This document shows, one piece after another, positions 13,313 to 62,467 of a DNA stretch of 64,000 nt. The notes under the pieces are model-generated. The model made no database searches. It was not told the origin of the DNA and saw only the letters and a program-made list of their open reading frames with translations. The position numbers and the translations under genes are program-made. This DNA is from Neocallimastix lanati (nom. inval.). Lineage: Eukaryota; Neocallimastigomycota; Neocallimastigomycetes; Neocallimastigales; Neocallimastigaceae. The first letter of the stretch is position 1. Each line of letters starts with the position of its first letter. The stretch is from contig JACVTC010000004.1 in NCBI GenBank assembly GCA_016946835.1, positions 1,481,001-1,545,000 on the forward strand, written 5' to 3'.

Positions 13313-19797
<6,485 letters not shown>

Positions 19798-22079: not shown

Positions 22080-27169
<5,090 letters not shown>

Positions 27170-32613: not shown

Positions 32614-35299
32614 ATGGTAAATATAATAATTAAATATTTATTTAATAAAATACTTTTAAGAAACAGTAATTAATATTATTTTAAATATATATAGTTCTCT
32701 CAAAGATCATCTTCACCATACAATAATAATAGACCAGTATCTCCATACGCTAATAGACCAACTTCACCATTTACGCAGAGACCGGATACTCCTGTAAATG
32801 TTGAAAATGAACGTGAAAAGCTTAGAGAAGCTGGTAATTCTGAAAGAATAAATGCATTATCTGCTTTTGAAGATAAAATAAAAAATCAACGTTTACAAAA
32901 CGAGAAACAACAGCAATTAAGAATACAAAATAGAGAAAATGAAGTTTTCGAAAAAGCACATATACTTAAAGAAAAGTTAATAGAAAGTCAAAATGAAAAG
33001 TTGAAAGAAGAACAACTTCGTATAAAAAAGCAAAATGAATTATATTTAGAACAATCTAAGGAGCAAAAACAACATGTGGATGATTTTGAAAAACATAAGA
33101 GAGAAATGTTAAAACGACAAGAAGAAGAAAAGAAAAAAGAATTAGAAAGAAATGAACAACAAGCTTTTGAAAAAGCTTTATTAGTTAGAAAGAAGATTGA
33201 AGAAGAAAAAAGATTACAAAAACAAAGAGAAGAAGAAGAGCGTAGATTAGAAGAAGAAAGAAGAGAAAAGGAAAAAGCTGAAAAATGGAAAATTCAAAAA
33301 ATGAAATTCGAAAAATTAGAGGAAGAAAGAAAATTAAGACGTATGACACCCGCTCAAAGAGAAGAATATTTAGAAGCTAAAGCAAAGCGTGAAGCTGAAG
33401 AAAAGAAAAAAAAGGAAGAAGAAGAAGAAAGAAAAAGAAAAGAAGAAGAAGAAAGAAAAAGAAAAGAAGAAGAAGAAAGAATAAGAAAAGAAGAAGAAGA
33501 AAGAAGAAGAAAAGAAGAAGAAGAAAGAACAAGAAAAGAAGAAGAAGAAAGAACAAGAAAAGAAGAAGAAGAAAGAATAAGAAAAGAAGAAGAAGAAAGA
33601 ATAAGAAAAGAAGAAGAAGAAAGAATAAGAAAAGAAGAAGAAGAAAGAAGAAGAAAAGAAGAAGAAGAAAGAAGAAGAAAAGAAGAAGAAAGAATAAGAA
33701 AAGAAGAAGAAGAAAGAATAAGAAAAGAAGAAGAAGAAAGAATAAGAAAAGAAGAAGAAGAAAGAAGAAGAAAAGAAGAAGAAGAAAGAATAAGAAAAGA
33801 AGAAGAGGAAAATAGAAGAAAGGAAGAAGAAGATAAACAACATGAACTTCATTTACAGAAAGAAAAAGAAGAAACGAACGAAAAAGAAAGACAACATGAA
33901 CTTCAATTACAGAAAGAAAACGAAGAAGAAGAAAAAGCAAATGAGAAGGAAGGCCAACAACTACAAAAAGAAACAGAAGAGGAAGAAAAAGAAGCAAATG
34001 AAAAAGAAAGACAACATCAACTTGAATTACAAAAAGAGGAAAAAGAAAAAGAAACGAAGGAAAAAGAGATTGAAAGACAACATCAACTCCAAATCCAAAA
34101 AGAAAAAGAAGAAAAAGAAGCTCGTGAAAGAGAAAGACAACAATTAGAAAAAGAAAAAGAAGAAAAAGAAATTAAAGTAAAAGAAAGTAAAAAACGTCTA
34201 TTTATATTTAAAAGAAGTAAAAAGGATAAAAAAGATAAGAAAGATAAAAAAAGTAAAAAGGAAGCAAAAAAAGAAGCAAAAGAAAAAGAAAGACAACATC
34301 AAATAGAAATTGAAAGAGAACAAAAAGAAAGAGAAGCCCAAAAAAAGGAAATCGAAAGATTAGAAAAAATACATAAAGAAGAAGAAGAAAGAGAAAGAAA
34401 GGAAAAACAAGAAAAAATAATGAATGAAGTAGATGAAGTTGAAGAAAAGGTACATGAAGAAGAACATGAAGAAGAAAAGCAAGAAGAAAATGAAATAGAA
34501 TCACAAGAAATACATGATGAAAATAAAGATAATGAAAGGAAAACACTTATCATGGAAAGAGAGGAACAACTTCAACATTATTTTGCTGAAACTAGTCAAA
34601 GTTCCATAATTGAAAGTGAAGCATACCAAAATGTAATAATAGATTATGAAACTGAAAGAAAAAGAATAGCAGAAGAAAGAAAAAAATTAGAAAAAGAACA
34701 AAAAGAATTAGAAGAGGCTATGGAAATACTACGAAAGCAACAAGAAATTGATATTCGTAGAAAAAAAATTGAAGAGGAAAAAGTTATAATTCGTCGTGCT
34801 TACAGAGCGGAACACCGTATAAATAATCCAGAAGAAGAACCAAAAGAAAGAACCCCACTTCAACCAATGAAAGGTTTCTTAGATGATATGGCCAATTTTG
34901 ATGATGATAGTTGGAGTGATTTCTTTAAACAATATAATAGTAAAAATTTTTTTTTATTTCTTGTATTAAAATGAATAAAGCATAAATAATAATAATATAT
35001 AGAAAGATATAAATTATTTAGTAAATTTAATTTAATCTAAAAAAAAATATATGTATATTTTTATATATTATATTTATTTATATATAATTTATTATACTTA
35101 TTATTATTGAATAGTTGCTGAAGAAAACCTTCATAAATATGAACCAGAATCAAAACAAAACCCAGAGATAGAAAATAGATCAATAAAAGCAGAAATTGAA
35201 CTTAAAGAATTAAACTTACCAGAGGAAAGACCAACTTACCCAAGAGAAAGTTCAAAACATGGTTCAAAATCAAAATCCGGCTGTTGTATAGTAATGTAA
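32614..35299 (+). CDS. Charged helical rod protein with C-terminal CaaX box
   Basis: Predicted membrane-tethered, rod-like structural protein of about 810 residues. Exon 1 contributes only the ATG (32614-32616, followed by GTAAAT). Exon 2 is 32695-34939 and exon 3 35115-35299, all in phase. The N terminus is Ser/Pro-rich (FSQRSSSPYNNNRPVSPYA). Residues about 100-720 are Glu/Lys/Arg/Gln-rich and helical. Inside, residues about 241-382 are 17 near-perfect eight-residue units of the type RKEEEERI, the pattern of a stable single alpha-helix. The last exon ends SKSKSGCCIVM: a polybasic stretch and a CaaX motif (Cys-Ile-Val-Met) typical of farnesylation, with an extra Cys beside it that could be palmitoylated. 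No named family was recognised; similarity searches will be confused by low complexity. Confidence 0.85.
33412..33837 (+). repeat. 24-nt coding repeat for the ER/K helix
   Basis: About 17 tandem copies of a 24-nt purine-only unit (AGAAAAGAAGAAGAAGAAAG plus a variable triplet) encode RKEEEER followed by I, R, T or K. One unit is 21 nt, shifting the register by one residue. The antisense strand shows long Phe/Leu/Ser frames that are artefacts. Confidence 0.9.
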
Positions 35300-41151: not shown

Positions 41152-44100
41152 TTAAATTAATAATTCATTATCCATATATTGATCATAAGAAGGAGTTTTG
41201 ACTGAATCTTCTCCAAAAATCTTTGTAACAATCATATTTATAAGATCTTCTGTTGTTATTTCACTATTTAGTAATGATGATTGAGGAAGTTCAACATTCT
41301 TTTCATCTTCAACCCATTTTACAATTTCTGTTGAAGTTAAAGAATCTAAACCATAGACTTGTAGTGGTACATTGGTATCAATATCTTCATCAACTAAACC
41401 CAATAAATCTTGTAATTTTTCAACAACTTCATTTCTTAAAAGTCCAACGACTTCTTGTCTATTTCCAGTAGAAATATTTTTCTTCTTTAACATATCATCA
41501 GCTACTATAGCTTCATGAGTTTGATCATATCGATTAACAGAACCATCAAATGTACTTTCACTATCAGCAATACTTGATACTGGTTTTGATTTTGAAATAT
41601 CATCATTGAAATCCATACTAGTATTATTGGATGGGACATTATAGAAATTTGATCCATCATTCTTAGCTAATAAATTACGAGAAATAATATTAATTAATTC
41701 ATTCGTGGTTACTTCATCACTTAGTAATTGATTTTGTGGTATGGAAATCTTATATTCGTCTTGAACCCAATTGATTACTTCCATGGCTGTTAAAGAATCT
41801 AATCCATAGACACGAAGTGGAATAGCGGGATCAATTTTTTCATCAACCAAACCTAACATATTTTGTAATCTATCACATACATCATTCTTTAAAGCTTCAC
41901 TATCTATATTATTAGTTTTTATTTCATCCTTTTGAAGAGTTGGAATGTGTTGATAAAGAGGATCAATATTGGATTGAACTTCAACAGTTTGAACATTTAA
42001 GCTAGTTGGAATTACTGGTGTAACTGGTGCTACTGTATTCTTAACAGCTGGGGCAACTATTGGTGCTGGTGCAGCAGCAATAGGTACTGGTGCAGCTGGG
42101 GACGATTCAGTAGCTGGAGCAGAAGAAGAACCATCCATAATGACATTAATTAAATCTTCAGTAGTAATATCATCTCCTAATAATTGACTTTGACTGAATT
42201 CAATATTCATTTCACTTTCTATCCATTTAGTTAATTCCATAGCAGTTAAAGAATCTAAACCATAGACACGAAGTGGAATGGTAACATCAATTTCTTCATC
42301 AATTAAACCTAACATGCTTTGTAATTTTTCAGTAATATCCTTGGTTAATTTGTCCCTGTTAAGACCACTAGATTTCTTAGCAATAGTAGCAGGTGCAGCT
42401 CTTACTTGAGCAACTGGAGCTGGAACTGGAGCTGGTTGGAACGATTTAACTGGTGGTTTAATTGATGCTTGAACTGGTGCTGGAACTGGTACTGGAACTT
42501 GTTGGAAAGATCTCGTTTGAGTAATATGTGTTGGAACTGGTGCTGGTTGGAAGGATCTTACTGAAGGTTGTTGATATGCAGCAACAGGTGCTGGTGCAGC
42601 TGGGGACGATTCAGTAGCTGGAGCAGATGAAGAACCATCCATAATGACATTAATTAAATCTTCGGTAGTAATATCATCTCCTAATAATTGACTTTGACTG
42701 AATTCAATATTCATTTCACTTTCAATCCATTTGGTTAATTCCATAGCAGTTAAAGAATCTAAACCATAGACACGAAGTGGAATGGTAACATCAATTTCTT
42801 CATCAATTAAACCTAACATGCTTTGTAACTTTTCAGTAATATCCTTTGTTAATTTCTCCTTGCTTAGACCATTAGATTTCTTAGCGGTAGCGACTGAAAC
42901 TTGAGTTCTTGATGTATCAACTGGAAGAGCAGCTGAAGCTATAACTGGAGCTGGTTGTACATTTCTTACTGGAACAGATTTTGGTACTCGAGTAGCAACT
43001 TGGGATGATTGGAGGTTTTGGGGTGAAACTGGTTTTGGAACTTGTGCATTAATAGAAGCGGTTTGGAAAGGTTTCGATTGATTAACAACTGGTATAGTAG
43101 CTGGTGCTGCGACTTGAACTGGAACCGAAGCTGAAGAAGAACCATCCATGATAACATTAATTAAATCTTCAGTAGTAATATCATCTCCTAATAATTGACT
43201 TTGACTGAATTCAATATTCATTTCACTTTCTATCCATTTGGTTAATTCCATAGCAGTTAAAGAATCTAAACCATAGACACGAAGTGGAATGGTAACATCA
43301 ATTTCTTCATCAATTAAACCTAACATGCTTTGTAATTTTTCAGTAATATCCTTGGTTAATTTGTCCTTATTAAGACTACTGGATGGTTTAGCAGCAGCAA
43401 CTGGAGCTGGTTGGAAAGATTTTGCTTGAGCAACAGGAAGAACTGGAGCTGGTTGGAAAGACTTTACTTGAGCCATTGGGGCAACCGTTGTTGGTTGGAA
43501 AGGTTTTGCTTGAGATACTGGGGCAGCAGCTGGAGCCGAAGCTGAAGAGGAACCATCCATGATGACATTAATTAAATCTTCAGTAGTAATATCATCTCCT
43601 AATAATTGACTTTGACTGAATTCAATATTCATTTCACTTTCAATCCATTTGGTTAATTCCATAGCAGTTAAAGAATCTAAACCATAGACACGAAGTGGAA
43701 TGGTAACATCAATTTCTTCATCAATTAAACCCAACATACTTTGTAATTTTTCAGTAATATCTTTGGTTAATTTGTCCTTATTAAGACTACTGGATGGTTT
43801 AGCCGCAGCAACTGGAGCTGGTTTGAAAGATTTAACTTGAGCAACTGGGGCAACTGGAGCTGGTTGGAAAGACTTTGCTTGAGCAACAGGAAGAACTGGA
43901 GCTGGTTGTAAAGATTTAGCTTGAGCAACAGGAAGAACTGAAGCTGGTTGGAAAGACTTTACTTGAGCCATTGGGGCAACCGTTGTTGGTTGGAAAGGTT
44001 TTGCTTGAGATACTGGGGCAATTGGAGTTGGTTGGAAAGACTTTGTCTGAGCAATTGGAGCAGCAGCTGGAGCCGGAGCTGAAGAGGAACCATCCATGAT

Positions 44101-47100
44101 AACATTAATTAAATCTTCAGTAGTAATATCATCTCCTAATAATTGACTTTGACTGAATTCAATATTCATTTCACTTTCTATCCATTTGGTTAATTCCATA
44201 GCAGTTAAAGAATCTAATCCATAGACACGAAGTGGAATGGTAACATCAATTTCTTCATCAATTAAACCTAACATGCTTTGTAATTTTTCAGTAATATCTT
44301 TGGTTAATTTGTCCTTATTAAGACTACTGGATGGTTTAGCAGCAACAACTGGAGCTGGTTTGAAAGATTTAGCTTGAGCAACTGGAAGAACTGGAGTTGG
44401 TTGGAAAGACTTTGCTTGAGCAACTGGAACAACTGAGGCAACAGCTGGTGTAATTGCTGGAGCAGATGGAGAAGATTCAGTAGCTGGAGCAGAAGAAGAA
44501 CCATCCATGATAACATTAATTAAATCTTCAGTAGTAATATCATCTCCTAATAATTGACTTTGACTGAATTCAATATTCATTTCACTTTCAATCCATTTGG
44601 TTAATTCCATAGCAGTTAAAGAATCTAAACCATAGACACGAAGTGGAATGGTAACATCAATTTCTTCATCAATTAAACCCAACATACTTTGTAATTTTTC
44701 AGTAATATCCTTAGTTAGTCTATCCTTGTTAAGACGAGTAGCTGGTTTAGCTACGGTAACTGGAGCAGCAACTTTCACTTGAGTGTTTGGAGCGGATTGG
44801 AAAGATCTTGATTTCATAGTAACATGATCAGCAGCTGGAGCTACAGTACCAGAATTAAAGGAACCTATCTGAACAGGAACTGGATTAATTGGAACTGGTC
44901 TAAAGGTTTTTATTGCCACTGGAGTAAAGGAACGCATGGAAGAAGTACCAGTAGCAGTGGCACCTGGTCTTGGAGTAGAGGTTGGTTCATCCATATAATG
45001 ACCACCACCATTCTTAATTAAAGATGGAAGATTCAATTTCTTTTCAGTTGGGTAGGTCACATTTGGAACTGGATTAACACCACGTAAATGAGAAATACTA
45101 CGAGTTACTGGAGCAACAAAAGTAGCATCATAGGACATATCAGCCCAATTCTTAGCCATGTAAACATTAGCTGGGAGATCATAACGAATTAAACCATCCA
45201 TAACATTAACTAATTCATCGGTATCTAAAAGAGCAATTAATTGCTCAAAGTCCTTGGATTGTTTTGTTTGATTCCACTTAGCTAAGTAACCAGAACCACG
45301 CATAGCTGGAAGTGCAATACAATTACCTGAAAGTCCCTTTTCTCTACGATGATCAACAATTGAACTTAAGAAGGCATTAGCAGCACCATAAGCCGTTTGA
45401 CCACGATTACCTAAGACATCAAGAATAGAAGAAAAGACCACAAACAATTGAACTTGATGAGCCTTTTGAGCCGTAACCAAATGTAAATTCCATGCTCCTT
45501 CAGCCTTGGCATTGAAACCCTTACGAAGTAAGGCAAGATCAGAAGTACTAATTAAACCAGGAGCAAAGCGATTAGCTAAATGGAAGACACCAGCAATTCT
45601 TGGTTGGCATTGTTCGAATAATTGTTTAACATCTGTCTTGTTAGTAATATCACAGGTCTTAATCATGACATTTATATTCTTTTCCATTAATGATCTAACA
45701 ATTGGTTGTTGGTATTGCTTTTCAACAGAACCACTAGTAGTTAATAAAATGTTCTTAGCACCACGGCTAACGAGCCAAAGAACAACTCTTAAACCTACAC
45801 CACCAAAAGCACCAGTAACTAAATAGGTCATGTTGGAATCAATCAAGGTTAATGGAGAACATTCATATTTCATTTTTTCATCAAATTCAATACATGTCTT
45901 GCCAATATTTCTACCACTAGCAAGATAGAAGAAGGCATCCTTGTATTTATTAGCTGGGAAAATTTTAGCTGGTATTGGCGTAAGTTTACCAGTATTGAAC
46001 AAATCAAAGATAATATTTTTGTAGACACTCATTTGTTGGTTACTGAGAAGATCAATATGGGATGAGACAAAGGAAATATTATTAAGAAGACAGTGAAGAC
46101 CCAACTTGCTGTCATTTAAAATATCTGTCTTTCCAATTTCAACAAATTTACCACCATTCTTTAAGCATTTAATTCCCATTCGAAGGCTACTTCCAGAAAG
46201 AGAGTTTAATACAAAATCAACACCTTCTCCATTCGTCCAATTCATTACATCACGATAAAATTCTTCTGGATTTCTAGAGTTGGTTACATGTTCAAGACCA
46301 TAGGTTTCACGGAGGAATTGTTGTTTAGAAGAAGAAGCACTAGCAATAATATTAGCACCCCAAAGTTGACATAATTTCACAGCAGCTTGACCAACACCAC
46401 CAGCAGCTGCATGAATTAAAATTGTTTGACCAGGTTTAATACCACCAGCACGAACGTGTAAACTGTAATAAGCGGTAATAAAAACAATAAACATACCGGC
46501 ATATTCAACTTTATACATACTTTCTGGAATCTTCTGAACAGAAAGTGGATCAACAACACTATAGGTACGTAATAGATGACCATACTTGTGAGAAAAGGCA
46601 ACCACTGGATCACCAATTTGTAATTTATTTCTTGGGTTGCTTGCGACGTTTTTACCGATAGCAACAACTCGACCAATACATTCCATACCTGGTTCATAAT
46701 CATCAAATCCAATAAGAGCATCCATAGCAGTCATAATATCCTTGAATTGTAATGAAACACCCTTTGTTTTAACAACAACTTCATCATCACTATAGGATGG
46801 AAGACCAATGCATTCACTGTACTTCATTTGACCAATTTGTCCATTAGCACTTCTTTCTAACTTTATGTTTGAAGACTTCACTACGGGTTCCTTATCAAGT
46901 TTCATAAATCTTACACATTGAATCTTACCATCAATAATTTCAACTTCTGGATCATCCATAGTTAAACTACTACGTAAAGTAGCTAAATATAGATCTTCAA
47001 ATTTATCGGTATGAGCAGTGAATAATGGGACTTTACATTCAGCACGAGCAGCACGAACCATACCAATAACTGCCTTACTAGTAGCTATAGCATGAGATTG

Positions 47101-50100
47101 AACAGATTCATCCTTGATGTACTTGGAAGCAGCAAACAACGTTGGGATTTCATAATTAACCATAGTCTTAAGAACCATAAATGCACGATCAATTTCTGGA
47201 CTTTCAATGTAACTAGTATCGATAACAAAGGTTTCCTTTGGTTCAATCATCTTACTCTCTACCATTTGTTGAATATTCTCAACATAATTACCTGGTAAAA
47301 CCCAAATATTCTGTAAACCAGCAACAACACTACCAATATGAGTGGCAAAAGTATTAGCTTCATTTTGTTGGTTTTCAGTACACATAACAATAACATTACG
47401 ACAATTGACAGGTAAAGATTCCGTAGTTGAAGGAGCCTTTTCTTCATAACCTAAAATATGAATCCAATCAATTGCCTTTTCGGCCTTGGTACGACGGAAA
47501 GACATAGTTAAACCTTCAACATAACCAAAGATATTTTTGTTTTCATCATATATGTAAACATTAGAAACACATTCCTTAAAGTCTTGTTTTACTAATTCAG
47601 TAGCAACAATAAGAGTACCTTCTGGGAAGTGACCACCTTGGCTTAAAACAATCTTCTTCATACGAATTGGAAGAGCTTGGCTATCACCAGCAGCAACACC
47701 AGAAGCAAAAACGATTTGAATACAGTTATCTAAAACAGCAGGATGACAAACCATCTTTTGATGTTCCTTAGTTACAGTTAACTTACCATATGCAACATTC
47801 TTTCCAGAACGAATAGCCTTATATAAACGGAATTCCTTACCATAATCTAAACCAATTTCTTCAGTACGGTTATAGAACATGGCTGGAGTAACACCTTGAC
47901 CACCAGCAACAGAAGCACATTGCTTAATGAAGTAATCAGCAGATGGAAGATTCTTTAAAGTTTCAGTTTCATCCTTATCGTTAAACTTACCTGAAGAAAC
48001 TTCAACATCATCATTAAAGATAATCTTATAAGTATGATTACTTCTTTCTTCTTCATAAGTAATTGGCATTGGTCCTGTAACGGTATTAAAATCAATGTTC
48101 TTATCAAAGATACCCATACGATCAAACTTCATATCTTCAAAAGAAATGATAGGTCTTTGAGCACTCTTCAATGGATGAGCAGTAGCAAAACCACTGAAGG
48201 CACGACTTACTGAACCAGCGGCTGGAAGAACAATTTTTTTATTAACAATGTGATCTTGAAGATATCTATGATTTTCAAAGTTCCATTGATTACCTGTACT
48301 GTACAATATATTAGTTTTAGAAGAAACAAAAGTAGTCTTTTGATGTTGTGATGCATCAGTAGCCTTTGGCTTAGCAATAGGAGCTTTAGATGATGCTAAA
48401 GATGTTGCATTAACAGCACCAGCAGCCGGAGCAACCTTACCAGACTTTATGTTCTTAAGAAGTTTAAGATCATCTTCTGTAAGACCCATTTCCTTAAGAA
48501 CAATGTCACGAGTAGTATAAATATCATGGTTAGAATCAGTACCAATACGATCGGTGTATTGCTTTCTAATAAACTTACGGTTCCATACGTGCTTTGGAAG
48601 AGTGAAATTTATTGAACGTAACTTCTTTAATGGAACAGTATCACCTGTCTTAATTTGCTTAAGATCAACCTTTCCTTCCCAAATTTGAGTATAATCGATG
48701 TATTCAATAGCATTATCAATAAATAAGACTGCACTAGTACGGCACATACTATCAATGTCATCCATTTTACGAGATAATGAAAAGTAAACGTTATCCTTGC
48801 CATAAATTTCTTTAAGATACATACCAAGAACTGGATGAGCACCAATTTCTAATACACGCTTAGAGCACTGAGTACCAATAGTGGCGGCTGCATAGAAATT
48901 AACTGGGTTACGGATATTAGCCCACCAGTAGTTTTCATCAAATGGACCATCATATTCTTGGCCCAAGCATGCGGAAATAAACTTACACTTTGGAGCATGA
49001 GTACGTTCACCAATTCCTTTAATACTTTCCTTGAAGGCTTGTTCAGCACCTTCAACATATGGAGAATGGAAGGCTTGCTTAACCTTTAAAACAACGGCAA
49101 AGAGATTTTGAGCTTTAGCTTCTTGAGCTACAGCATTAATTTGTTCAAGATCACCAGCTAAAGTAACAGAATTAGCACTATTAACAGCAGAGATGAAAAC
49201 ATTTGGCTTATTGCTCATAAAGTATTGTGCTTGTTCAACAGAACATCCAAGTGCTAACATACCCTTTCCAGTTCCATCTAATTGAGAAAGAATATGACCA
49301 CGCATATATAACAGTAAAACGGCATCTTCAAGGGTAAGTATACCAGCAGCATAAGCAGCAGCAACTTCTCCCATGCTGTGTCCATAAACTGCTTCTGGAG
49401 TAACACCCATAGCTTTCCAAATTTCAGTAAGAGCAATTTGAGCAACACCAATAGCAAGAATAGAGTATTGTGGAAGAGAAAGATCAGCTTCACTAATTTG
49501 GGCAGCATCACCCTTGAAAATTTGATACTTTTCAAAGATATCTTCACCACCATTGTAGGTAACAAGAACAGCAGCACAATAATCAACAACCTTCTTGAAA
49601 AGACCGTTCACTTGATACATACGTCTACCCATGTTTATAAATTGGGAACCTTGACCAGAGAAAGCAAAGTTGACACCTGGTTTTTCAATCATCTTTATAC
49701 GCTTCATGTATATCTTTTCATGTCTCTTAAACTTTTCAGCATCTCCTTGTATCATTTCTTCAATTAACGCTTTAGCTTCATCAACAGAGCCGAAAATCAT
49801 GGCTGAACGTACATTTTCAGATTCATGACATTGAGTAGCAATAAAAAGCTCTTGTAAAAGAACTTCCTTTGGAACTTCAGTACTCCATTTCTTTAAAAGT
49901 TTTTTAAGGGTTTGTTCATCAAAGGCGGAAAAGGTAGCTACTACTAGATTCTTTGGATCTTTAATGGTCATCTTTAAGTCTTCTGGTTTTTCATTTACTA
50001 CTTCTTCAAAAATAGCATTACCATTGGAACCACCAAAACCGAAGGAATTAACAGCGATACGTAATGTATGTGGAGTAGTCCATGGTTCTAATTTAGTGGC

Positions 50101-53100
50101 AACCTTAATACCTAATTTTTCAGCATCAATAGCTGGATTCATTTCGTTATGTGCAATGGTTGGAACCATAGTACGATGGTATAACATCAAAATGGCCTTA
50201 ATCATACCAATAATACCACTTGAATATTCACCATGACCAGTATTACCCTTACTAGAACCAATAATTAATGGATAAGTAGGTTGATCAATAATTTCTTCAG
50301 TTTCACCTGGACGAGTAGTTTTGATTTGTTTTCCTTCACGAACTCTACGACCATAAGCATAACCGATAGAACGAGCTTCAATTGGATCACCAACAGCCGT
50401 ACCAGTACCATGAGCTTCCACATAATCAATAGTGGCTGGATCAATATTGCACTTTTCGCAAACATGAGACAATAATTTGCATTGAGATTCGTAGGATGGC
50501 ATGGTTAAAGAAGGAGTATGACCATCTTCATTAGTACCACTACCTAAGATAGCACAGTAAATCTTATCACCATCTCTAACGGCCTTTTCATATGGCTTAA
50601 TCATAATCATACCAGCACCTTCAATACGAGAGTAGCCATCAGCATTCTTATCGAAAGGCTTACATGAACCATCAGTGGAAACTACACGAAGTTGAGAATA
50701 AGCGACATAATTTCCTGGTGCAAATAATAAATTAGTACCGGCGATAAGTGCAGCATCACAATCATCAGTAATCATGGAATTAATTGCAAGGTTTAAGGCA
50801 GTCATTGAAGCTGAGCATGCTGTATTAGTACAAACAGATGGACCATTTAAATCGAAAACATAGGAAATACGATTAGCAAGAATTGAAAGTTCAAGACCAG
50901 TAGCAGAATGTTGAGTTAAATCATTTGAATGAGAAATTTGAGATGCAACAAAGTCCATACCAGAAGAACCAACAAATACACCTGTTCTGGAACCTCTCAA
51001 CTTCTTAGGATTGATATTAGCATCTTCAAAAGTTTCAACAGCTAACTCTAATAACCAACGTTGTTCTGGTGACATTTCTTTAGCTTCATTTTGAGAAATA
51101 GAGAAATATTTATTATCAAAGTAGAATGCATCTTCTAAAAAGGCACCTCTATCAGTTTGTATGGTACCTCTCTTTGGTTCTTTGTTGTACCATTCTGCTG
51201 TATTCCAACGATCACCTGGAATCTCTGAGGTAAGACAACGTCCAGTAGTGAGCATTTCCCAGAAATCTTCTTTAGATTTAATATTACCTGGGAAACGACA
51301 ACCAACACCAATAACGGCATACTTTGGTTTATTAATTGGATGAAGATAACTTTTCTTTTCATAAGTATCAAATTCAGTAACTCTTGGTTTTAATGGATTT
51401 GGAATGGAAGGATAAATCTTAGAGGACTTATTAACTAAAATTTCAGGGTATTCTTGTTGAGCTACACGTCCTATAATACTTAAAGCTTCATCGATATCTT
51501 CATCAGTGAGTGAACCTAAAACAGTAGTTCTTAATCTAGCCATATTCTTTGGAACAGCTGGGAAAGCAACAGCAGAGAAATTTAAACCTTCTTCATATAA
51601 ACGTCTTTGGAATTTAATACCATTAATTTCATCATAAATCATAATTGGACATACACAACTAACACCTTCAATAATTTCAAAACCAAGGTTACGAATACCT
51701 TCTTTCCAATGTTTTACATTACGTTGAAGTCTGGCACGAATGCTATTTGGACCTTCTTCTTCAATTAAGTCAAGAGCTTTTAATGAAGTAGCAGCATATA
51801 CTGGGGTATTATTTGTTGAGAAAATAATACCACTTGAATTTTCTAATTTGTTTTGATACTCTCTTCTACAACAAATATAACCACCGTGAGAACAAAGTGA
51901 TTTAACTAAAGTACCAGTAACAAAATCAACAGATCCTGGCATATTAAAATAGTCTAATGTACCATAACCGTGTGGACCTTTATATTTTAGTTATTTCATT
52001 TCATTTTAAAAAACAATTATATTTAAGTAATAAAAATTGATTTAATCCAAATGACAAAATTGTTAAATAAATATTATATATATATATATATAATTATTAT
52101 TAATTGTATAAAATTTAACACATAAAAAATGAATTATATATTTTAATTAGTATATTGCAAAAAGATAATTAATTATTTATATATAATTGTATATAATTAT
52201 AGCTATTTTTATTTTTATTATAAATAAATTTAGCTCTTTCCATTTAATGAAAAAATTTTTTCATAAAAAACTTACCAATGATACCCAAAGCATGACATTC
52301 ATCAATCATAGTTTTACAATTGTATTTCTTTGCAATTCTAACAATATTTGGTAAATCACAAACATCACCTAGATTAATTTAAATTAAAAAATTATTTATG
52401 TACATAATCATAACATTATTAGATATTTGAGAGAACTTTTCATAAAATATTTTAAAAAAAAAAAAAAATATTAAATTTGAATATAATTATTTATATCAAA
52501 TAAGTTAAATTTTGAAATAATTTACCTTCCATACTAAATACACCATCGAAAATAATTAATTTAACTCTATCTGGGAATTTTTCATTAATTAATTTTACAT
52601 TTTTTTCTAAATCTTCCATATCATTGTGCTTATATTTAATCATTTTGGCTTTAGACAAATCAATACCATCGATAATTGTAGTATGATTTAATTCATCTGA
52701 AAAAACAAAATCTTTAGCACCAACAATTAATGGAATAATGGTCATATTTGCAAGAGTAGCTATTGTATTAAATATCATATTTAGTAAAATAAAATATATA
52801 TATATATATATAAAAATAATTATATATATATATATAATTATTTTTTTTTTTTTTTTTTTTTAGTAATGAAAACTCCATTTTATAATATCTTTAGCAATTA
52901 AATAAAAAATAAATTATATACATACCTCCAGAAGTAGTTACACCATATGGTAAACCATATATTTTACCTAAACGATAACCTAACTTCTCATGAAGATTAG
53001 TTAAACCACCAAATGGTGCACTTCCCAGAGGACTCAATCCATATTGTTCAATTGCTTTATAAGCAGCTTCTTTCATTCTTGGATCTTGATTTAATCCAAG

Positions 53101-53405
53101 ATAAGAAGTTGAACAAAAATTGATTTTCTATAATATATCAGTATAAAAAAAAAAAAAGGTTAAGCTATAAACTTTTTTTTTATTTTATTAAAAACTAAGC
53201 TTACTCTATTGGTTGGACAAGCAATATCAATACATTCTGAATAATCATGATATACATAAGCACCAGAGTGTTCAAGTTTAGCTAATTTATTTTGGGTTAA
53301 ATTAAATTTCATTTCTTCACATGGTAATGTACTATCAATTAATGCCCAAGCTTCCTTGGACTTTCTATTATCCCTTGGAGGAATATTAATAACTCTTGAA
53401 GCCAT
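41152..53405 (-). CDS. AOS-PKS megasynthase: alpha-oxoamine synthase + reducing polyketide synthase + 8 ACPs
   Basis: Five exons in phase (53405-53205, 53127-52926, 52759-52526, 52368-52276, 51977-41152) give 3851 residues. Residues 1-430 are a PLP-dependent alpha-oxoamine synthase: NFCSTSYLGL, DELNHTTIIDG, IDECHALG (Asp235, His238) and TGTLVKSLCSHGGY (PLP Lys269). KS: TACSAS (Cys631), EAHGTGT (His766), KGNTGH (His825). AT: GHSMGE (Ser1111) and AFHSP, suggesting malonyl-CoA. DH: His1486 in an HxxxGxxxxP-like site where Gly is Lys, with DNCIQ near 1657. A psiKR-like segment with no methyltransferase motif follows, then ER (HAAAGGVGQAA near 2102), KR (TGAFGGVG near 2296, YGAAN near 2439) and eight ACPs with GLDSLT serines (about 2692-3784). 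There is no thioesterase or reductase. Predicted: a reduced chain released onto an amino acid by the AOS (inference). The 10.8-kb last exon is intronless and richer in G and C than its neighbours. Confidence 0.93.
41230..44740 (-). repeat. Eight tandem acyl carrier protein domains
   Basis: Approximate domain spans on the minus strand, N- to C-terminal: 44740-44505, 44325-44095, 43790-43560, 43375-43145, 42865-42640, 42360-42140, 41910-41690 and 41450-41230. Each has GLDSLT, the phosphopantetheine serine site. The first six are essentially identical over about 80 residues (from KLTKDITEKLQSMLGLIDEE to VIMDGSSSA); the seventh and eighth are clearly diverged. The linkers are Pro/Ala/Val/Gln-rich, built from PAPVAPVAQAKSFQ-type words that vary in copy number. 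Confidence 0.93.
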
Positions 53406-60378: not shown

Positions 60379-62467
60379 CGTTATAAGATTAAGAGTCTCA
60401 GGTTAGACTAGTCGCACAAAATGAATTCCTGATTTTTACTTAAAGATGAAGAACGTCTCAACAAAAGAAATTTCGATGTCTGATATGAGAAAATTTGCAA
60501 CAAACTTAAATCTGAAAAACACTACTGCTTTATTGAATCAGACTACGTACGTAACTAATTTCAAGTCCGAAAACCACACTGGTGACGATCTCATTAAAAA
60601 GCCAGAAGATCTATAAACCAAGGAAGCTCTTTCTAATTCTTTCATCCTAAACAACATCACATTAGCTACCCACGAAAAGGTTAAAGTATACAAATGTCCA
60701 TTCGAGCTTAAGGAAAAATTAAAGAAGGAATTCGACAAAATGGAGTCCACAGATGTCAGATACGGGTTACGTCAAATCTTAACGACAGTATGGCCGTTAT
60801 GAATAAAATCAAAGAAATCTTAAAAAATTCTTAATGACAAAGCCTACAAACTAGGTGATCTTGAAGAAATCAAAATTATTTATAATGGATGTCCCAACAT
60901 GATTAAACAAAAATTAAATCTTGACAGAGATGAAAAACCTGAAGTTTTTATAAAATATATATACAGAAAAATTTCGGTCTTCTCATACGTCTTAAACCAA
61001 GAAGATTACCATCAAGGAAACTAAGAAAAAAAAAACACAATTACAATGACAATCCCATGAACATCGGTAACATCTGCAAAGCAACAAAGGTCGAAAATAG
61101 AATATCATTTATGAAAATTCAAAACCAAAAAACAAAAATGACTATAATTGAGAAATCAAAATACTGTTATATTTGCAAAATACCTGGACACACAACTGAA
61201 GAATGTTGTTTTAATGGAAAGACAAATTCTGATATTGAACACAAAAGAAACAGAATACAAAAATAAGAATCGTAGAAACAACAAGAAAAAATTCAAAATA
61301 TAATCACGAAAGGAAAAGATATGTAAGCGATATTGAATACAAGGAAAAACAAGAAAACGAAAGATCATCTATCGATGAAGTTAGAACTATGTTTGAAAAG
61401 GATTTAAACAACATTGAAATAATTAATAACAAGGAATCTCCTGAAGAAGATAGAAATGAAACTAATGAAAAAAAAAAAAAAAAAACAGAAACACAGGGCA
61501 ATAATGTTGATCATATTCAAGAAGGTGATAAAACATAAGGTAATCAAGATAATGAAGATACTGTAATCTAGACCAATGATACTGGATGATCTGGATATGT
61601 TAGCGAATTATTCAATCAAAATGGTACAACTTCACTCCTCTTAAGATAAGGTAATAATAAGAAAAACCGAAAAGAATGCTATCGGAAAATTTACTGAAGA
61701 TGAACTTAATATTGAAAGAATTCCCATTAATATTATTTAATCGACAAATTAACACCCTCAATACAAACAAAGAAAAGTTAACAAACTATAGTAAGCGCAT
61801 CTGGCATCAAAGGCATGGACATTTCTACCTTGAAGACTTGGGAAAGTATATATATCTACATAATGCTAAGGAAGTCGAATGTTTAGACTGTAAAATTTCA
61901 AAAGTTAAGAAAATTTCTCATAATAGAAATCCTCCAAAGACATCAAGAATTCTCGAAACCATCCATTCAGATGAAATGGGACCTATTAACAAATCAGTTA
62001 CTGGCAAAAATTATATTCTCATATTCTCACTTTCTTTGACGAATATAGTAGAAAATCCTGGATCTATCTAATTGAAAGGAAATCTAAAATCTCAAGACTA
62101 GTTATTCAATTTATTAATTTCATTAAAACATAATTCAATCACAAGATTAAAATGTTATAAAACTGATAATAGAAAGGAGTTCAAGAACAAAAAAAATAGA
62201 GCATTATTGCAAAAAGAACGAAAGAACGGAATTAAGAAGATTTACTATCCACCATAAAATCCTCAAAACAATGGTATGGCTGAAAGGTTAAACTGTACTA
62301 TTACAGATAGCGCAAAGACTATTCTACATTGGAACAAACTAGGAGCGGAATTCTGGTCACATAACAAATAAAAAACCCAATAATGGACAAGAAATATTTA
62401 ATAAATCAATCAAAAGAAAAAACATGATTACCTAAAGCAATACCGATTTCATCAATACAGATTCTGA

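Follow-up and report, generated by a model that had tools for sequence, protein, structure and literature searches.

The stretch of DNA analysed here (the window) comprises 64,000 nucleotides of the gut fungus Neocallimastix lanati (nom. inval.), positions 1,481,001 to 1,545,000 of contig JACVTC010000004.1 in assembly GCA_016946835.1. On its minus strand, between positions 41152 and 53405, lies a gene for a polyketide synthase (PKS) that carries an alpha-oxoamine synthase (AOS) at its amino terminus. Five exons (53405-53205, 53127-52926, 52759-52526, 52368-52276 and 51977-41152), with GT..AG at all borders, join into a continuous frame of 3851 codons that meets its only stop at the end. Pfam searches of the 3851-residue translation give the domain order AOS, ketosynthase (KS), acyltransferase (AT), dehydratase (DH), enoyl reductase (ER), ketoreductase (KR) and eight acyl carrier proteins (ACPs), with nothing detected beyond the last ACP and no thioesterase, thioester-reductase or condensation domain found in the protein at E values of 0.001 or below. 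A preliminary description of this DNA had proposed that in-phase exons fuse a complete AOS to a KS-AT-DH-ER-KR chain and tandem ACPs, with nothing after the final ACP. The translation and the Pfam matches bear this out and put the number of ACPs at eight.

The union of AOS and PKS does not hang on the predicted introns. Exon 5 alone is open for 3607 codons (shuffling its letters 200 times gave no open run longer than 180 codons) and begins inside the AOS, ahead of the residue Lys269, leaving the AOS from residue 245 onward in an uninterrupted frame with the KS. Because this one frame carries both the lysine-bearing half of the AOS and the KS, their join is independent of splicing. Chance and mis-splicing were rejected as sources of the fusion on these grounds, with which the orthologues described below agree.

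The N-terminal AOS domain covers residues from about 43 to 420 (positions 51448..53279, minus strand, exons 1-5) and matches PF00155 (Aminotran_1_2) at residues 67-412 with an E value of 2.5e-39. His160, Asp235, His238, Thr266, Lys269 and Arg393 are the residues found at the corresponding places in E. coli Kbl, in BioF and in LCB2; Lys269, Asp235 and His238 had been named in the preliminary description, and the other three now join them. The codon of Lys269 lies at 51901-51903, and those of Asp235 and His238 fall in exon 4. We take Lys269 to be the lysine that binds pyridoxal 5'-phosphate (PLP), Arg393 to act on the carboxylate of the amino acid, and His160 to lie over the ring. Judged by the whole-domain match and the catalytic residues, the domain is a member of the fold type I PLP-dependent AOS enzymes, and its residues predict a catalytically complete site.

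The PKS portion follows on the same strand. The KS (50023..51318; PF00109, 1e-72) keeps Cys631, His766 and His825; the AT (48802..49668; PF00698, 2.1e-48) has Ser1111 within GHSMGE and His1214 within AFH; the DH (47488..48300; PF14765 (PS-DH), 2.8e-16) keeps His1486 and Asp1660; the ER (45895..46788; PF00107 (zinc-dehydrogenase), 1.1e-16) contains AAGGVGQAA; and the KR (45298..45828; PF08659, 9.9e-44) has Ser2427, Tyr2440 and Asn2444. The KS-AT-DH-ER-KR-ACP set that marks a highly reducing type I PKS is present in one chain, and the window PKS is likely an iterative, mostly reducing chain builder, the single module pointing to iteration. Among solved structures, mycocerosic acid synthase is the best match to the PKS part (576 bits), with 7zma at 530, Pks16 at 508, animal fatty acid synthase (FAS) at 474-476, modular CurL at 474 and fungal lovastatin synthase at 396 bits.

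Proteins of the same build occur in related fungi. With AOS residues 1-430 as query, a search restricted to long proteins returned four proteins from 3090 candidates. These include Anaeromyces robustus BCR32DRAFT_248107 (P0001; 3733 aa, 94% identical over the AOS) and Neocallimastix californiae LY90DRAFT_512986 (P0002; 4276 aa, 92%), which have the same domain order as the window protein and whose public gene models read as one protein. The other two matches were P0003, wholly contained in the window protein, and a protein of 1604 aa. Further protein searches gave seven proteins from 2729 candidates, and a search for stand-alone AOS proteins scored 7999 candidates, 120 of 6362 matches being listed; all of these searches depend on shared five-residue words and on length limits, and do not by themselves show absence elsewhere. 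A second AOS-PKS copy, of 4289 aa, lies on contig C46 of the window's own genome (199 Mb) and has four introns at the same positions and phases as the window gene. Near residue 29, P0002 is shorter than C46 by 13 residues over a short stretch; beyond this point the two AOS sequences agree at 400 of 400 residues. The six catalytic residues are kept in the window protein, C46 and P0001, and their motifs in P0002. The preliminary description had looked to other Neocallimastigomycota for this architecture, and had regarded a dead AOS in orthologues as telling against its proposal; P0001 and P0002 match the order, the C46 copy adds to them, and in all three the AOS retains its catalytic residues.

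The same comparison gives a measure of constraint. Ratios of nonsynonymous to synonymous change (dN/dS), computed with an NG86 script written for this analysis, are 0.052 for the AOS between the window gene and C46, followed by 0.067 for the KS, 0.077 for the ER, 0.095 for the AT, 0.111 for the KR and 0.113 for the DH; the linker between AOS and KS stands at 0.26, and two ACP stretches at 0.32 and 0.27. The AOS is the domain with the lowest ratio, and within this pair it is under strong purifying selection.

The eight ACPs occupy positions 41227..44730 of the minus strand as eight PF00550 stretches, each with YGLDSL, joined by Ala/Pro-rich repeats; a carrier-domain scan of the genome likewise gave matches at eight places on the window contig. 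Cores 1-4 lie at 44730-44506, 44319-44095, 43782-43558 and 43371-43147, and cores 5-8 at 42864-42640, 42360-42136, 41904-41680 and 41451-41227. Six of the eight are near-identical (214-223 of 225 bases), and these six read LINVIM, against LINIIM in the repeats of the other three proteins. A residue specific to the window, together with near-identical cores, is what would be expected if the repeats were homogenised within the gene. Counts of ACPs with the YGLDSL motif vary from 8 in the window to 10 in C46, 7 in the Anaeromyces protein and 10 in that of N. californiae, and an array of 7-10 repeats, alike within a gene and different between copies, looks like the product of concerted evolution.

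The window protein belongs to a larger family. In the window's genome an AOS adjoins a KS in contigs C334 (which holds the window), C46, C522, C235, C13, C27 and C124, and C77 holds a decayed form in which the AOS lysine has become arginine, the KS is mostly missing and the AT motif is GYGAGE, without its serine. Each family type has two copies in this genome, and in two types one copy is decayed. A KS tree of 25 sequences (20 of the genome's 30 KS matches, namely the ones with returned loci, and five others) puts nine AOS-fused KS domains in one clade (100/100). An AOS tree of 57 sequences, including 40 of the 120 listed stand-alone matches, unites ten gut-fungal AOS domains (100/99). Both trees carry a long-branch warning and are rooted at the midpoint. 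Their main branch order is the same, with some weak inner forks (93/78, 88/83); the trio around the window differs, the AOS tree joining the window with C46 and the KS tree joining C46 with Anaeromyces (85/68). The window protein is thus no lone oddity; it is one branch of a gut-fungal family.

Intron positions tell a similar story. An intron after residue 67 in phase 0 is shared by the window, C46, C522, C235 and C27, one after residue 134 in phase 1 by these five and C13, and one after residue 212 in phase 1 by the window, C46, C124 and C77; the LCB1 and LCB2 genes have none of these positions in common with the family. Several other junctions, chiefly in C124 and C77, are not common to the family, and some of them may be aligner artefacts. 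From both trees and the introns, a single ancestral fusion of AOS to KS is the simplest reading of the family's origin, and a likely one. A horizontal gain from bacterial PKS-AOS fusions found no support. In the three other fusions recovered, P0004 (FAAL-ACP-KS-ACP-AOS), P0010 from Myxococcota (KS-AT-ACP-KR-DH-AOS) and P0011 from Streptomyces (FAAL-ACP-KS-AT-ACP-AOS), AOS and KS also share one chain and the AOS residues are intact. There, however, a FAAL or KS domain comes first and the AOS last, whereas in the window protein the AOS is N-terminal, and under the same long-branch warning and midpoint root the three fall in clades separate from the gut-fungal ones in both trees.

Within the family, the AOS has fared unevenly. 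Lys269 is lost in six of the seven other members examined (C522, C13, C235, C27, C77 and the Piromyces protein P0006), and the seventh, C124, keeps the lysine and has lost both histidines and Arg393. In two pairs of sisters with degenerate AOS domains, the part of the AOS that lies in the large exon has dN/dS values of 0.18 and 0.27, whereas the KS stands at 0.037 and 0.044 (C13 of the second pair contains stops). Such losses suggest that the AOS of the window protein might itself be a structural or regulatory relic whose PLP residues persist by chance or for folding. We consider this very improbable, given that the six catalytic residues are kept in the window protein, C46 and P0001, with their motifs in P0002, and that no other domain has a dN/dS as low as that of the AOS.

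The sisters differ from the window type in their carriers as well. Pfam detected no ACP in P0005, none in P0006, in C27 or in the tail of C124 even at E values up to 5, and none in the front part of C124. A profile of our own found none in P0005-P0008, C124 or C27 (best stray match 3 bits) and all seven in P0001, a control that is not independent, as most rows of the profile are window ACPs, joined by a single one each of P0001 and P0002 and by some of bacterial origin. C235, which has a run of 5000 N bases, was left out of this judgement, and C13 out of the ACP test. Among the readable members, only the window type retains the catalytic residues of the AOS, and it alone has ACPs (7-10 of them).

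What the sisters carry instead is varied. P0005 and P0006, of the C522 type, end in two enoyl-CoA-hydratase (ECH) stretches and an HMG-CoA-synthase domain with an NAC motif, closest to the HMG-CoA synthases 2f82 (245 bits) and 2p8u (227) and much weaker against the PKS enzymes CurD (37) and PksG (34). The C27 open frame has an AT and two ECH stretches, without DH, ER or KR; C235 encodes a KS-AT protein with a degenerate AOS; and C124 has a DH, a KR and a broken ER motif. An ECH match in C124 stays below threshold, at 13 bits (E 0.056, cut-off 27), and is not counted as a domain. The AT serine is lost in the C522 and C124 types and kept in C27 and C235; the KS cysteine is kept in the C522 type (P0005, P0006), C27/C235 and C124. 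As an observation in its own right, the C522 type (P0005-P0008, P0006 being from Piromyces finnis) is a fungal PKS with a beta-branching-like C-terminal ECH-HMG-CoA-synthase region, a degenerate AOS and no AT serine.

LCB2 pairs with the lysine-less LCB1 in serine palmitoyltransferase (SPT), and on that model AOS folds might pair subunits here too: the window protein would be the ACP-bearing subunit, the ACP-less sisters would use its array, and its intact AOS would release the joint product, perhaps a beta-branched one. The C522 type, C27/C235 and C124 do keep the KS cysteine, with no ACP detected in P0005, P0006, C27 or C124, and the missing AT serine would leave the C522 and C124 types unable to work alone; the likely single AOS-KS ancestor and the two copies per type, one decayed in two types, fit as well. 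Other carriers are nevertheless present in the genome, for example short ACP open frames at C141, C30 and C677, and the relaxed dN/dS of the degenerate AOS domains speaks against a strict interface. We regard the arrangement as unlikely, if the most credible of the alternatives. A fuller version, in which a multi-protein synthase assembled through AOS folds takes its ACPs and its only intact AOS from the window protein and its KS, reducing, ECH and HMG-CoA-synthase domains from the sisters, with the fungus making a beta-branched chain freed as an aminoketone, seems a little less probable again.

The reading we favour, and hold to be fairly probable, is that the window gene encodes a reducing iterative PKS with its own AOS for release, the ACP-bound chain leaving as a long-chain alpha-aminoketone, a product deduced from the domains. 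The AT would load malonyl units, the KS would extend the chain, and KR, DH and ER would reduce it while it rides on the ACP array. PLP on Lys269 would take up an amino acid (Ser, Ala, Gly or another) as an external aldimine, whose carbanion would attack the acyl-S-ACP; CO2 would leave and the long-chain alpha-aminoketone would be released. The C-terminal ACPs could reach the N-terminal AOS through their long linkers. Since decarboxylative condensation by an AOS leaves no thioester, the AOS can only be the final step, wherever in the chain it is placed, and with no other release domain found it would mark the end of the line. In keeping with this, among the readable family members an intact AOS accompanies ACPs, and a degenerate AOS accompanies no detectable ACP. 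The preliminary description had likewise envisaged that the N-terminal domain reaches back to unload the ACP-bound chain onto an amino acid, and the single polypeptide, the intact residues and the lack of another release domain lend that proposal partial support. If it is correct, a single protein would turn malonyl units into a long-chain aminoketone, its release enzyme sitting at an unexpected end of the chain. The sister enzymes show how a PKS-fused AOS may be retained or lost, or perhaps take on a new role as a pairing module in the manner of LCB1/LCB2.

The stand-alone relatives of the AOS bear on whether it acts on the PKS chain at all. The 120 listed of 6362 share 35-40% identity with it across 76-88% of the query, and among the matches listed those with names are prokaryotic or metagenomic and KBL- or BioF-like; when ten of them were typed, several scored above an SPT cut-off and others above a KBL-type cut-off. 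The solved chain labelled 'Aminoacyl transferase sphA', presumably the sphingofungin enzyme, reaches 74 bits against the window AOS, compared with 234 bits for a bacterial KBL. KBL-type proteins use acyl-CoA. The AOS could therefore condense an acyl-CoA with an amino acid independently of the PKS, the polyketide chain being hydrolysed or freed in trans and the fusion being a matter of history; the distance of the N-terminal site from the ACPs fits such a division of labour, as does the presence of KBL-type proteins among the nearest stand-alone relatives listed. We think this improbable. It leaves the PKS chain without a release domain in the window protein, the intact AOS is confined, among the members read, to those that bear ACPs, and there is precedent for AOS release after a PKS (PMC12134224, PMC3870968).

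Several observations nonetheless weigh against release by the AOS as we have outlined it. Each of the seven other family members examined has lost AOS residues. On the window AOS, none of the curated NCBIfam models for KBL, BioF and SPT reaches its cut-off (Kbl gives 314 of the 460 bits needed, BioF 290 of 426, and the Bacteroidota-type SPT 284 of 640), and all three labels were rejected on that account. Ala104 takes the place of an arginine found in the Kbl, SPT and LCB2 rows (E. coli BioF has glycine), and Thr74 that of an asparagine in the Kbl, BioF and bacterial SPT rows, so the substrates may be unusual or the activity altered; the AOS residues do not settle which amino acid is used, L-serine included. 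In the DH, the glycine of the HxxxG motif that marks such domains is replaced by lysine (HIVNKK), likewise in P0001, P0002 and C46; full reduction of the chain is thus not certain and some oxygen may remain. The PKS part is not clearly FAS-like, its score against CurL being on a par with that against animal FAS. Finally, LCB2 genes are present at C335 and near-identical C368, the C335 piece scoring 498 bits to SPT2 chains, and a probable LCB1, judged by its lysine-less sequence only, lies at C146; with canonical SPT genes present, no metabolic gap demands the AOS-PKS.

The sphingoid-like lipid suggested in the preliminary description remains one option among others, and ordinary SPT subunits are apparently encoded elsewhere. 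Dihydrosphingosine has been reported in Caecomyces churrovis (PMC12471499), a finding for which SPT would suffice. According to a survey of sphingolipid genes in fungi, de novo ceramide synthesis is preserved and gut fungi have a reduced repertoire (PMC13161914); the main text of that survey contains neither 'polyketide' nor 'oxoamine'.

In the fumonisin and sphingofungin type of Ascomycota, the AOS is a separate protein. Release of a fungal PKS chain onto an amino acid by a PLP protein is what the fumonisin system (PMC3870968) would have in common with the window protein; sphingofungin is named in PMC12134224. In Pseudomonas fluorescens MYb115, the iterative PKS PfSgaA and the AOS PfSgaB yield C24, C26 and C28 sphinganines, and PfSgaB is an SPT that showed a near-exclusive preference for serine when assayed on acyl-CoA surrogates (PMC12134224). 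In this system a PKS builds the chain and an AOS joins it to serine, but the two are separate bacterial proteins, whereas in the window the AOS is N-terminally fused and followed by a chain with eight ACPs. The window AOS, lying in the same open frame as the PKS, is no partner in a fumonisin- or SgaAB-type pair. As a bacterial PKS and a separate AOS already make true sphinganines (PMC12134224), the chemistry is known and the architecture is the new part. SPTs of Rhodobacteria prefer acyl-ACP (PMC9386255). Tandem ACPs are shared with the polyunsaturated fatty acid (PUFA) synthases, in which more ACPs raised output (PMC5067506), yet the domain set, with its AOS, is different, and the PfaA model gives it 249.8 bits against a cut-off of 1010.1, which sets it apart from that class. 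The open-access literature searched yielded no account of a PKS that bears an AOS at its N-terminus, which is not proof of absence.

A Rap/Ran-GAP exon (13316..14026, minus strand; PF02145, 1.6e-20) lies about 27 kb downstream of the AOS-PKS gene, and C46 has a Rap-GAP at 374828-375649, on the same side and strand as in the window, about 23 kb from its AOS-PKS copy. Swift and colleagues (2021) recognised six families among 23 PKSs of gut fungi (PMC8106346). Their family 1 occurs in all four strains and has two N. californiae copies, one beside a Rap1-GAP gene; it is transcribed, and all copies were found expressed by proteomics (PMC8106346). The Rap-GAP neighbour leads us to infer that the window gene is a member of that family, and with two copies on record as well the match is probably correct. 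Some details run the other way: window-type proteins were found in A. robustus and N. californiae only, within the length and word limits of the searches; the identifiers of the matched proteins do not occur in the main text of PMC8106346; and the WD40 neighbour reported there for family 1 is not among 16 window open frames. The words 'aminotransferase' and 'oxoamine' are absent from that main text, as is 'aminotransferase' from that of a co-culture study (PMC8406330). If the match holds, the AOS would point to a definite class of product for family 1, to which the text consulted assigns none, in a group of organisms with hardly any assigned polyketides.

The rest of the neighbourhood is plain. 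No metabolic genes were found among the 16 window open frames searched with Pfam, exons unjoined, which gave the Rap-GAP, a vinculin-like exon and weak matches only. Open frames of more than 750 codons at 22083-24341 and 32695-34971 have no Pfam match at E values of 0.01 or below. Those at 60425-62071 resemble retrotransposon remnants by eye, with zinc-knuckle-like and integrase-like peptides; one was tested and gave no Pfam match. Elsewhere in the genome, C721, C83, C445 and C755 have open frames 12,500-15,900 codons long that contain many carrier domains and may encode giant nonribosomal peptide synthetases.

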